DNA of 35,694 nt from Eubacteriales bacterium (lineage in GTDB: Bacteria > Bacillota > Clostridia > Tissierellales > Dethiosulfatibacteraceae): positions 1 through 35,694 of the forward strand of contig JAUYTY010000155.1 in assembly GCA_030694905.1 (NCBI GenBank), in the 5' to 3' direction. Numbering within the stretch: position 1 is the first letter of the stretch; each line of letters begins with the position of its first letter. The position numbers were made by a program, and so were the translations under genes. Positions 31,327 through 35,694 of this stretch are shown here, piece by piece. The notes beneath the pieces are model-generated. The model saw only the letters and a program-made list of their open reading frames with translations. It did no database searches and was not told the origin of the DNA.

Positions 31327-31343
31327 AACATCATCCGGGTGTT
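31327..31343 (-). terminator. Weak hairpin between convergent genes
   Basis: AACATC (31327-31332) / GGTGTT (31338-31343) with loop ATCCG and one G-T pair, overlapping the end of the minus-strand ATPase gene. On the minus strand it is followed by TTTATAAG. It is only a possible shared terminator. Confidence 0.35.
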
Positions 31344-32124
31344 ATGTCAGGAAGGACTTGATGAGTTTCTGGGCATATGGATTCTGAGGATCAGAGAGCA
31401 TTTTTTCCGTATTCTCAATTTCAACAATTTCGCCTTGATACATAACTGCGATTCTATTGCACATGTGTTTCACAACATTTAAGTCATGGGTGATAAATAC
31501 ATATGTCAAATTAAGCTCTTCCTTAAGTTTAAGAAGCAGATTCAATATCTGTCCTTGAACTGATACATCCAGTGCGGAAACAGGTTCATCACAGACAATA
31601 ACTCTTGCTCTTGTTGCAATTGCCCTTGCAATCAAGATTCTCTGATTCTGACCGCCACTCAGTTGTGATGGGAACTTATTTTTTTCTGATTTTGACAGAC
31701 CCACCAATTCAAGTAACCGGTCCACCTCATTATCTATCTGATATTTAGCAACCACTTGGTGTATTTCAAGAGGTTCTCTTAGAAGCTCCGAGATAGTCAT
31801 TTTTGGATCCAGTACCGCATGCGTGTACTGGAATATGATTTGTATGTCACCTCTGTATATTCGCATTGATTCTTCGCTCAATTGTGTTATATCTTTTCCA
31901 AATAGCTCAATCCTGCCTTCACTTGGTTCAATCAATTTTAGCAAAAGATTGGCGACGGTAGTTTTCCCCGAACCGCTTTCACCAATCAAACCAAGTGATT
32001 CTCCTGATTTAACTTCAAAACTTATTTTTCTAACCGCATGAATTATTTTCTTTTTTGAAAAAACATTGTTTCTGATAACAAAGTGTTTTGAAAGGTCTAC
32101 TACCTTTAAAGCAATATCAGACAT
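31342..32124 (-). CDS. Oligopeptide-type ABC transporter ATPase (DppF/OppF-like)
   Basis: 260-aa ATPase of a peptide/nickel importer. Walker A is GESGSGKTT, the signature is LSGGQNQRILIARAI (an LSGGQ helix with QNQR instead of QQQR) and Walker B is VIVCDEPVSALD, followed by the H-loop VFITHDLNVV. It ends soon after DPQNPYAQKLIKSFL and lacks the long C-terminal domain of DppF homologues. It follows the second ATPase by 4 bp on the minus strand, with AGAGGTGAAAAG before its ATG. It is the last gene of the transporter operon in this window. Confidence 0.92.
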   Translation of the reverse strand: MSDIALKVVDLSKHFVIRNNVFSKKKIIHAVRKISFEVKSGESLGLIGESGSGKTTVANLLLKLIEPSEGRIELFGKDITQLSEESMRIYRGDIQIIFQYTHAVLDPKMTISELLREPLEIHQVVAKYQIDNEVDRLLELVGLSKSEKNKFPSQLSGGQNQRILIARAIATRARVIVCDEPVSALDVSVQGQILNLLLKLKEELNLTYVFITHDLNVVKHMCNRIAVMYQGEIVEIENTEKMLSDPQNPYAQKLIKSFLT

Positions 32125-32128
32125 CTTT

Positions 32129-33088
32129 TCACCTCTTTTTATGTTTGACGCATCTAATTTTGCGATTGTCCAATTCTATTATCTGTGGAATCTCCAGAGT
32201 GCATTCGGGCAGTCTATATTTGCATCTTGAGAAAAATGGGCATTCTTCCTTGAATTGAAAAGGAGTAGGCGCAGTGCCTTCAAGGGTATATACAGGACTG
32301 TCTCCACGAGTCAATGAACTGGCACATTCGATGAGTTCTCTGGTATATGGATGAAGTGGTTCTTCAAATATATCATTTACAGTTCCTTCCTCCATTACAA
32401 GCCCTCCATACATGATAATCAATCGGTCACACAGATACCTTGCCACATCAAAATCATGTGTAATTAGTATAATAGCCATACCTGATTTTTGGTTGATATT
32501 TTTCAATAAATCAAGCACGGTTTTTCTCAGAGAAGCATCAATGGAACTTGACGGTTCATCGGCAATTAACAAGTCCGGTTTGCTGATAATCCCTTGAGCA
32601 ATCATGATTCTCTGATTTTGGCCACCACTTAATTGAAATGGGTACATATCATAGACCATATGAACCTCTTCAATTCCAACTCCCTTCAACGCATCTAAAA
32701 CAATGGTTCTTGAATAAGGCAATTGATGATTTTTCAATACTTCCGTCAACTGGAGGCCAATCTTTTTGTAAGGATTCAAAGCACTGGAAGCATTTTGAAA
32801 AACATAAGAGATCCGATTGCCTCTAATCTTTCTGTATTCCTTTTCAGTTAGTTCAATAAGATTTCTATCCTTGTAAAAAACTGTTCCAGAGTCGATTGAT
32901 CCCGCTTCATCCTCCAATCTCAGAATAGAGGTTGCAGAAACGGTTTTTCCACTACCCGACTCGCCAAGAATTCCTACAATCTCTCCACTATCCATGCTCA
33001 GATCAAATCCTCTAACCACTTGAATTTTTCCATTCTCATGAAAAAAAGAGATCTTTAAGTCTTTTATAGCAATAAGTTTATCCTTCAT
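32129..33088 (-). CDS. Oligopeptide-type ABC transporter ATPase (DppD/OppD-like)
   Basis: 319-aa ATPase. Walker A is GESGSGKTV, the signature LSGGQNQRIMIAQGI, Walker B LLIADEPSSSID and the H-loop ILITHDFDVA. The C-terminal oligopeptide domain is present: HPYTRELIECASSLTR, then a cysteine region (CPFFSRCKYRLPEC and a later RCVKH) that in DppD homologues forms a small metal or Fe-S site. It pairs with the 31342-32124 ATPase to drive the two permeases. It lies 25 bp after the fused permease gene. Confidence 0.93.
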   Translation of the reverse strand: MKDKLIAIKDLKISFFHENGKIQVVRGFDLSMDSGEIVGILGESGSGKTVSATSILRLEDEAGSIDSGTVFYKDRNLIELTEKEYRKIRGNRISYVFQNASSALNPYKKIGLQLTEVLKNHQLPYSRTIVLDALKGVGIEEVHMVYDMYPFQLSGGQNQRIMIAQGIISKPDLLIADEPSSSIDASLRKTVLDLLKNINQKSGMAIILITHDFDVARYLCDRLIIMYGGLVMEEGTVNDIFEEPLHPYTRELIECASSLTRGDSPVYTLEGTAPTPFQFKEECPFFSRCKYRLPECTLEIPQIIELDNRKIRCVKHKKR

Positions 33089-33113: not shown

Positions 33114-35378
33114 CTAATAATTGTTTTTATTGATCACTTCTAAAACAATGCTTCCTAAAGTTTCCAAATCCCAAATGTTGTTATCTGTTTTCACTGTTCC
33201 TAATATAACTGTGGGTATACCCCGATTCCAGAAAAGTGCGTTATCTGATTCGCTTTTCGTGAAATAGTATGATCCATCTATGTAGTTGGTCTCCAACAGT
33301 TGGATAGGATATCCTTTTTGATTCAGCTTAGAATCAAAAAGACGTCCGAGGCTCCATGCGAATTGCCTTGTTGGAGGGGCTTGTGCTGTGCTAAATTCAA
33401 TTTCCCCAAAGCGTTCATGAGTAATTGACGTTAAGTCAATATATACCTGGATCTTTTGAGGACTATATGGAAAATCCTGTGCGATATAATGAATTCCATG
33501 TTGATTTTCATTGATAGTACCATCAAGGAACAAGAATATGATGGCTCTTTTTTGGTCAGCCATCTGACATAACCGTTCCATCAGTTTTAAATTAAATTTT
33601 AGCACTTCTCCGCCTTCTTGATTTAAATAGTTGTAATTCATACCAACAACAATAGCTTCGTCACCGATATGGGGGTCCGTACCACGGTGAATTCCTACCA
33701 CATTGTATCCATTTGATGTCAATGGTTTGACGGTTGTGTGAACAGCAATAACCAAGTCCGGATTTTCTTTTAATACTTGTGAAACTTCTTGAGATACGAC
33801 AATAACGGCATTGTCTTCATCAGCGTCAACAATATGATTCTGAATGACTTGATTTGCCCGAGCCACAAGTATTATACCCTTAACTCCAGCATTGACGGTG
33901 ATTGTTTCAATAAAGTGTCGGATTGCCGAATCACTGTAATAAAGTTGTTCAATCAATATAAATTTATCCGCAAAACGATCGAAACTCGAAATATTGAATA
34001 AATCATCTTTGGTAGCGTCGTAGACAACTCCAGACTCACTGATATTACCAGAAGTCAAAAAAGCATAATCTGTTCCCTGATTCAAGTTATGTATGCCACT
34101 CTCCATAGAAAGTGTCATCATCTGTTCCTCGATCAGGAACGATTGACCTATATCAAATGGCATTAAAAGACTGTCATTGCGCAGAGGTACAATTCCCAAT
34201 CTTGTCATATAATCTGCGATAAAACCGGCTGAAAACAAAGCCTCCTCTGTCCCAATAACCGTTGTCTCAGGAAGATCAACCCTGACAGAAGCATATCCGA
34301 TGCTATAATCCTTATAATTAATAAACGAGAAAAACCCGATTATTAAAGCAAACAATGCAATCCAGAGAGTAATCTTAAACTTGGATCTTTTGTCAACATT
34401 TACGCAAAAGTACTTAAAATCCAGTGTTATGATTTTTCTGAATGCAAGGACGGATCTTGACTCCTTTTTCTGCATCAATGTTCTGAGACCTTCTCCAAAC
34501 AGATTGAAACCAAGTACACTGATAAAAAAGGCAAGAGCAGGATAGATTACCGTCCACGGAGCGATAGTGATTAACGTTCGTGATGTGCTCAACATGCTTG
34601 CCCATTCCGGTTCAAAGCTGATATCAGTATTAATTTGAACACCTGAAGTCGCATCGTTGATCAAACCCAGATTTCCAATAAAGACTGAGAATATGCCGAG
34701 TTGCATTAATGTAGATAGATTTCTTGCAATTTCCATAAAAAACAATACGATCAACTCCGGTGCAAGATGTGGTATGACATTTTCAATGGCTATCCTGAAA
34801 TGCTTCTTACCTATGGCCACTTCACCTTTAATAAATGGTTGTGTCAATATTGTTTCCACTCTCTCCATCACAAGATTGCCTAGTCTTGCCCAACTGACAG
34901 CGGTTAACACCAAAATAAATGACATGATTGATTTTTGTTTCTCAAGTCCGACAAAGTAATCCAATTTCAATATGATAATGGCAATCAACAAAGCTGGAAT
35001 AGCAGAAAATATGACATTGAATTGTTGAATGACAGATTTGGCGATCCGACTGCCGAATCCGGCATATAAAGCCATAGGCACTGCAATTAGAAATTGTCCA
35101 AGTGCGATAAGAACTCCTAATGAAATTGTAAGTCTGGTTCCATAAATAATATAGCTATAAATATCTCTGCCAAGATGATCACTGCCAAGCAAAAAACCAT
35201 CATCAGGGGAAAAAGGAGCACGTTCTACTGAGAGTCTTCCTTCATCATGAAGAAATCTTATGTGTTGAATCGTATAGGGGCTATGACTGGCAAACATTTC
35301 CGGAAAGAGCATCACTAAAAGAACCAACAAGAGAATGACAATTCCAAAAATCAAAGGCACATTTCTCCTATTCATCAT
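33114..35378 (-). CDS. DppC-type permease fused to an M28-peptidase-like extracellular domain
   Basis: 754 aa, about two and a half times a normal DppC (about 300). Residues 1-305 are the permease: a first helix (7-29), GSDHLGRDIYSYIIYGTRLT, and an EAA-type loop (184-213, GEVAIGKKHFRIAIENVIPH) that docks the ATPases. An extra helix (about 336-354) then leads to a segment from 372 onwards that should be outside the cell. That segment resembles a PA domain (about 440-545) followed by an M28 aminopeptidase-like domain (from about 555; YNVVGIHRGTDPHIGDEAIV). The metal-binding motifs look lost: GMNYN (580-583 region) where active enzymes have a H-x-D, and LDGTI (618-622) where they have GEE. It is probably a non-catalytic, peptide-binding domain. 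The start overlaps the upstream permease stop (TAATG). Confidence 0.85.
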   Translation of the reverse strand: MMNRRNVPLIFGIVILLLVLLVMLFPEMFASHSPYTIQHIRFLHDEGRLSVERAPFSPDDGFLLGSDHLGRDIYSYIIYGTRLTISLGVLIALGQFLIAVPMALYAGFGSRIAKSVIQQFNVIFSAIPALLIAIIILKLDYFVGLEKQKSIMSFILVLTAVSWARLGNLVMERVETILTQPFIKGEVAIGKKHFRIAIENVIPHLAPELIVLFFMEIARNLSTLMQLGIFSVFIGNLGLINDATSGVQINTDISFEPEWASMLSTSRTLITIAPWTVIYPALAFFISVLGFNLFGEGLRTLMQKKESRSVLAFRKIITLDFKYFCVNVDKRSKFKITLWIALFALIIGFFSFINYKDYSIGYASVRVDLPETTVIGTEEALFSAGFIADYMTRLGIVPLRNDSLLMPFDIGQSFLIEEQMMTLSMESGIHNLNQGTDYAFLTSGNISESGVVYDATKDDLFNISSFDRFADKFILIEQLYYSDSAIRHFIETITVNAGVKGIILVARANQVIQNHIVDADEDNAVIVVSQEVSQVLKENPDLVIAVHTTVKPLTSNGYNVVGIHRGTDPHIGDEAIVVGMNYNYLNQEGGEVLKFNLKLMERLCQMADQKRAIIFLFLDGTINENQHGIHYIAQDFPYSPQKIQVYIDLTSITHERFGEIEFSTAQAPPTRQFAWSLGRLFDSKLNQKGYPIQLLETNYIDGSYYFTKSESDNALFWNRGIPTVILGTVKTDNNIWDLETLGSIVLEVINKNNY

Positions 35379-35694
35379 TATCCCCCCTTTCGCTTCATGG
35401 GATTTATGACTTTTGCAAGAAATTGAAATCCTTTTGTTAACGTAATATAGATAAGTCCCAATGTTAAAGCGAGTGGCACAAACCGATATACATCCTGACG
35501 ATTATACAGGTAGATCAAGAAATAAAGGATACCATGATAATTGAATAAATACTCAACAATAATCATATTGGAAAGCAGCATTGTAACAATAGTCGGCATA
35601 GCGTCGACAATCCTAAAAATTATGGCTGGGAGCAATTCAACAAAAATGATTTTTTGTCGGGAGAAACCCTTAGCTTTTTCATTTTTGATATAGT
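35378..35694 (-). CDS. DppB-type permease, C-terminal part (cut by window edge)
   Basis: The frame is open to the window edge, so the N-terminal part lies beyond it. The visible 105 residues start with YIKNEKAKGFSRQKIIFVEL, the EAA loop of peptide permeases (A-K-G-F-S). Two helices follow (MPTIVTMLLSNMIIVEYLFN and VPLALTLGLIYITL). The apparent TTG start inside is not a real start. It overlaps the fused permease gene by 1 bp, so the operon order is permease, fused permease, ATPase, ATPase. A substrate-binding protein may lie further upstream, beyond this window. Confidence 0.85.
   Translation of the reverse strand, partial: YIKNEKAKGFSRQKIIFVELLPAIIFRIVDAMPTIVTMLLSNMIIVEYLFNYHGILYFLIYLYNRQDVYRFVPLALTLGLIYITLTKGFQFLAKVINPMKRKGG

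Follow-up and report, generated by a model that had tools for sequence, protein, structure and literature searches.

The stretch of DNA analyzed here (the window) comprises 35,694 nt of contig JAUYTY010000155.1 from the Eubacteriales bacterium assembly GCA_030694905.1, which is fragmented into 221 contigs. Its minus strand carries a 754-codon open reading frame at 33114-35378; the plus strand is stop-rich across the same interval. A sequence-only reading of this DNA had picked out the frame, without stating its strand, and had described it as a DppC permease (residues 1-305) followed by an extra helix and a degenerate extracellular domain. Residues 1-305 (34464-35378, minus strand) do match Pfam BPD_transp_1 (PF00528, 7.6e-8) and NCBIfam Opp2C (4e-33), and they contain a six-helix core with an EAA-type loop (E186..G190). 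Orthologues with 47-70% identity run over residues 2-754 and further, more distant ones are found across the class, indicating that the fusion is more than a chance event.

Hydropathy analysis of the DppC-M28 protein reveals a basic stretch (residues 289-335, 11 Lys and Arg) and, after it, a predicted seventh transmembrane helix at residues 336-354 (34317-34373, minus strand). Since this helix comes after a basic loop, a positive-inside reading places residues 355-754 outside the cell, and the extracellular tail of the sequence-only reading therefore stands as a topology prediction. The continuous frame thus joins the permease to a putative extracytoplasmic domain.

The tail gave no significant match to Pfam or NCBIfam models, and a phmmer search against PDB sequences returned nothing useful. 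GalF, TarL, and SNaCT8 were considered as relatives and rejected, as these weak matches are at chance level. An AlphaFold2 model of the tail calculated from eight orthologues (pLDDT 71.5, pTM 0.66) was compared with the PDB by using Foldseek, which retrieved PaAP (E 6e-14), AM-1 aminopeptidase (1e-12), and BSAP (5e-12), followed by the transferrin receptor and GCPII. Among the matches listed, the top 50 are all M28-superfamily proteins, with no SBP (substrate-binding protein) fold encountered; TM-scores are only ~0.55, as expected from a moderate model. In hhalign, the tail profile also matches that of seven genuine M28 peptidases from related genomes over its full length (364 columns, E 7e-13, probability 97.8). 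On the strength of the Foldseek matches and this alignment, residues 372-754 (33117-34265, minus strand) are best described as a PA domain plus M28 fold, predicted to be extracellular, as had been suspected from the letters alone. A full-length AlphaFold2 model of DppC-M28 (pLDDT 55.6) is too poor to place the ectodomain relative to the permease.

The DppC-M28 gene lies within an operon ordered M28-DppB, DppC-M28, DppD, and DppF, most of which is held by the window; the four genes are whole only in relatives and are split over two contigs in the window genome. The frame at 35378-35692 (minus strand) encodes the C-terminal 104 aa of the DppB fusion. This gene is cut by the contig end, and the rest, with the M28 domain, is on another contig of the same genome (C160:1-2073, minus strand). 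Where DppB is complete (L011, L012, L013, L015, and L017), the protein has ~800-840 aa and consists of an N-terminal helix, an M28 domain of ~440 aa, and then the DppB permease. The N-terminal domain is recognized as M28 both by Pfam (E values to 9e-18 in the three tested) and by hhalign (E 3e-61). DppD (32129-33088, minus strand) and DppF (31342-32124, minus strand) both have intact ATPase motifs. In the window lineage, DppF is without most of the C-terminal oligo_HPY/4Fe-4S domain, whereas DppD retains the C-terminal Cys set typical of a 4Fe-4S domain. With permeases of the DppB and DppC types and two ATPases of the Dpp/Opp type, the operon encodes a transporter of that family.

Other DppC proteins with the same tail, which the sequence-only reading had proposed to search for, were found. 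A profile search detected DppC-M28 fusions in 14 of 391 genomes of the class, including that of the window, and all searches combined yielded 25 loci in 23 genomes. These totals are lower bounds, as divergent fusions in two genomes (G154 and G158) escaped an order-wide search that used only the window tail as query. A phylum-wide sample contained no fusion outside the class and only a single M28-like frame, of 472 aa, so that the architecture seems to be restricted to the class. In a scan of viral_contigs, nothing related to the window protein was found, nor was anything related to the L100 tail among PLSDB plasmids. The fragmented assembly and the DppB gene cut by the contig end could raise the suspicion that the fusion is an artefact of assembly or gene calling. 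The probability of this is negligible, however: the frame is continuous in most of the 25 loci, the fused DppCs form one clade, and the independent loci by themselves refute a contig-end origin. Apparent split genes at L014 (DppB) and L109 (DppC/M28) were likewise rejected, because the interruptions fall on runs of N.

We next aligned the fused domains with genuine M28 peptidases. The HxD motif is replaced in the window tail by GMNYN (residues 579-583, 33630-33644, minus strand), with Asn581 at the position of the His, and the GEE region by LDGT (residues 618-621, 33516-33527, minus strand), with Thr621 in place of the catalytic Glu and Ile622 in place of the next one. The bridging Asp, together with its entire loop, and the final His are missing. 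Asp648 (33435-33437, minus strand) is the sole metal-ligand equivalent kept, leaving one of five. The replaced motifs named in the sequence-only reading thus hold up after proper alignment, and the intact zinc ligands that would have contradicted it are not there. Its structural view, of a DppC permease with an extra helix and a PA/M28 pseudo-enzyme, is fully supported and holds across species. All 25 DppC tails retain 0-2 of the five ligands. The DppB domains are degenerate in the same way (0-2 of five in 9/9), while free M28 peptidases keep 5/5.

Could the fused domains still be enzymes, working with one metal, with another metal site, or by nonhydrolytic chemistry? Activity has changed in other M28-fold proteins, such as the glutaminyl cyclases, D2 is kept in most DppC tails, and 3/34 fused domains keep the catalytic Glu. 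Set against this, the His of HxD is present in 0/34, no domain has more than two ligands, and the window tail combines the loss of the bridging-Asp loop with the loss of the catalytic Glu. We regard retained catalysis as quite improbable, with residual peptidase activity in particular being disfavored by the ligand loss. The former active-site segments are nonetheless the best conserved of the tail: invariant columns amount to 39% in them vs 15%, and 5/398 circular shifts score as high. Some of this conservation may come from the motif strands being part of the fold core. The most divergent M28-DppB, at L108:4551-6902 (minus strand), has kept the bridging Asp (DNASG) and the catalytic Glu and lost the other ligands, as if caught at an intermediate stage of decay.

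Phylogenetic trees (unrooted, with L108 as a long branch) separate the fusion system from its ordinary counterparts. The permease parts of the fused DppCs fall on one side of a 100/100 branch, opposite ten DppCs from ordinary systems, and the DppBs of the fusion system likewise form one clade (100/100). In the window lineage (the window, L011-L017, L096, L097, and L108), M28 domains are present on both permeases wherever DppB is readable; in the other lineages, DppC alone carries one wherever DppB was seen. The M28 tree places the DppC tails together (100/99) and the DppB domains with free peptidases (100/99). As the DppB domains group with the free peptidases and apart from the DppC tails, the M28 domain looks to have been recruited onto DppB in a second, separate event. 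Both the second M28 domain and the finding that the architecture marks a whole clade go beyond the sequence-only reading.

Inspection of the neighboring genes for an SBP, another check that had been suggested, showed that none of the fusion clusters encodes a PF00496 SBP (cluster C). In E. coli, a scoop motif of DppB reaches into the cleft of DppA and closes off the cavity, and DppBCDF shows no ATPase activity when DppA is absent (PMC12136057). The TM1-TM2 region that contains the scoop spans 62-71 residues in nine SBP-paired DppBs of ordinary systems, with a PGxP motif in 7/9. In the fusion branch, it is altered in all 20 DppBs; it measures 52-56 residues in 18/20 (one has 84, and one has 32), and PGxP is found in 0/20. 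The altered scoop is an independent sign that the fusion transporters dock no ordinary SBP.

A different possibility is that the permease receives its substrate from an ordinary SBP whose gene lies elsewhere, with the M28 domains only aiding assembly or regulation. Shared SBPs acting from a distant locus are known, for example P. aeruginosa DppA5 (PMC4206461). G220, G221, G398, and probably the window genome contain additional SBPs that are not paired with any DppC found, with G220 and G221 each having one such SBP; a distant SBP might thus serve the fusion permease in some genomes. Three other genomes argue against this as a general solution. In G315, which is 100% complete, the sole SBP locus (on C16) adjoins an ordinary DppC, and the two SBP loci in each of G364 and G313 lie beside unfused DppCs, so that no unpaired SBP is left in any of the three. 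Together with the scoop region altered in 20/20 branch DppBs, these observations make a distant SBP rather unlikely as the explanation. The sequence-only reading had proposed a peptide-capturing or peptide-presenting domain within the transporter itself, in place of a separate binding protein or in aid of one. This proposal is consistent with all that was found, and the SBP-free operons, the lack of a spare SBP in three genomes, and the scoop loss give it independent support; peptide binding and import we infer rather than observe.

Two loci, L110:5139-6929 (G000:C81) and L111:3988-5775 (G364:C124), encode an odd DppC of a different kind, with ~595 aa and an insert of ~280 residues between helices 1 and 2. 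It is partnered by a very large SBP of 784-815 aa and by a DppB without PGxP in which the long scoop region is kept.

The surroundings of the operon differ among lineages. In one lineage outside that of the window (L099, L100, L104, L109, and partly L106), pheS-pheT and, mostly, zapA-U32 peptidase genes border the region of the DppC-M28 operon; these neighbors were named from their sequences. At the same loci, the operon is followed by genes for an HlyD-like adaptor, an ABC ATPase, and a permease in the same order, which resembles an export set. A complete DppF-DppB-DppC-M28-DppD set in L102 is immediately preceded, at the edge of a contig, by the terminal part of another degenerate M28 domain (L102:7255-7935, minus strand), which probably reflects tandem copies of the system. 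Finally, a lipoprotein M28 peptidase with all ligands intact is encoded at L107:2249-3724 (minus strand), 20 bp upstream of DppC-M28 and on the same strand. This arrangement, seen at one locus only, suggests an enzyme that makes fragments beside a receptor that catches them.

These neighborhoods bear on the direction of transport. Rather than import, an Opp/Dpp-like core without an SBP might export, flip, or extract its substrates (peptides, lipids, or wall fragments), and the pseudo-M28 domains would then act as outward acceptors or plugs. Loss of the SBP and the scoop strips away import-specific parts, and the export-like genes directly downstream in L099, L100, L104, and L109 point the same way. 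However, the permeases and ATPases are still Dpp/Opp-like, no export gene was seen adjoining the operon in the window lineage, and the codirectional peptidase gene in L107 would fit the uptake of cleavage products. Overall, we consider such a role unlikely, although it is the alternative to which we give the most weight.

With modest confidence, we favor an ABC transporter of the Dpp/Opp type that needs no free SBP and in which the tethered pseudo-peptidase ectodomains serve as substrate receptor or gate. Each permease half in the window lineage would hold a dead PA/M28 domain, anchored by its extra helix, above the outer opening of the channel. The metal-free pocket of the former active site could bind peptides, or a related ligand, without cleaving them. 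By docking or closing on the permease, the two ectodomains may then do the job of an SBP: they would deliver substrate, cap the outer cavity, and trigger the ATPases. A fuller and more tentative version, for which we would put the chances at slightly below even, holds that in this SBP-free Dpp-type clade recognition and ATPase triggering passed to dead M28 domains, on DppC first and later, independently, on DppB in the window lineage, so that the channel would be covered by a heterodimeric lid made of the two pseudo-peptidases.

Comparison with known systems sets the proposed transporter apart. It shares with the Dpp/Opp importers of E. coli (DppABCDF, PDB 8z1v-8z1z) and M. tuberculosis (Dpp, 8wd9) the permease folds, as judged by sequence, the heterodimeric DppB/DppC combined with DppD/DppF, the intact ATPase motifs, and the DppD Cys set. 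It differs from them in having no SBP in its operon, in the loss of the PGxP/scoop region from DppB, in the additional helices and M28-fold domains that one or both permeases carry, and in forming a separate clade. Receptor domains covalently tied to the permease outside the membrane are known from GlnPQ and OpuA (PMC11065425, PMC8025302), and the window lineage resembles these in having two predicted ectodomains per complex; the proposed transporter would function in a similar way. The tethered domains there are Venus flytraps of the SBP fold, whereas the fusion system has PA/M28 pseudo-peptidases attached to a Dpp-type core, and because the receptor fold differs, it falls outside the GlnPQ/OpuA kind. 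PaAP, BSAP, and AM-1 aminopeptidase, which are M28 enzymes with a PA domain, match in fold and, by profile, end to end, but the fused domains have 0-2 of five metal ligands and are joined to a transporter subunit. The nearest parallel in principle is nicastrin, described as the substrate receptor of a membrane complex (γ-secretase) with a peptidase-derived site (PMC2647162). Nicastrin and the transferrin receptor, the latter itself among the Foldseek matches, are likewise dead M28-like ectodomains reused as receptors; both are eukaryotic, have other membrane partners, and involve no ABC transporter, so the analogy is one of principle only. A search of open-licence PMC papers, which is weak evidence of absence, returned no description of an M28-ABC permease fusion, and the system looks like an undescribed branch of a very thoroughly studied transporter family.

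An SBP is regarded as indispensable to peptide ABC importers; E. coli DppBCDF, for example, is inactive as an ATPase without DppA (PMC12136057). A clade that seemingly dispenses with both SBP and scoop and uses a different fold instead would allow the contribution of the SBP, be it affinity, lid, or trigger, to be tested. The analysis also identifies as pseudo-enzymes a group of proteins that, in their DppB half, Pfam would annotate as M28 peptidases. More broadly, a peptidase appears to have been turned into a transporter part twice within one machine, in parallel with what happened in eukaryotic nicastrin and the transferrin receptor.
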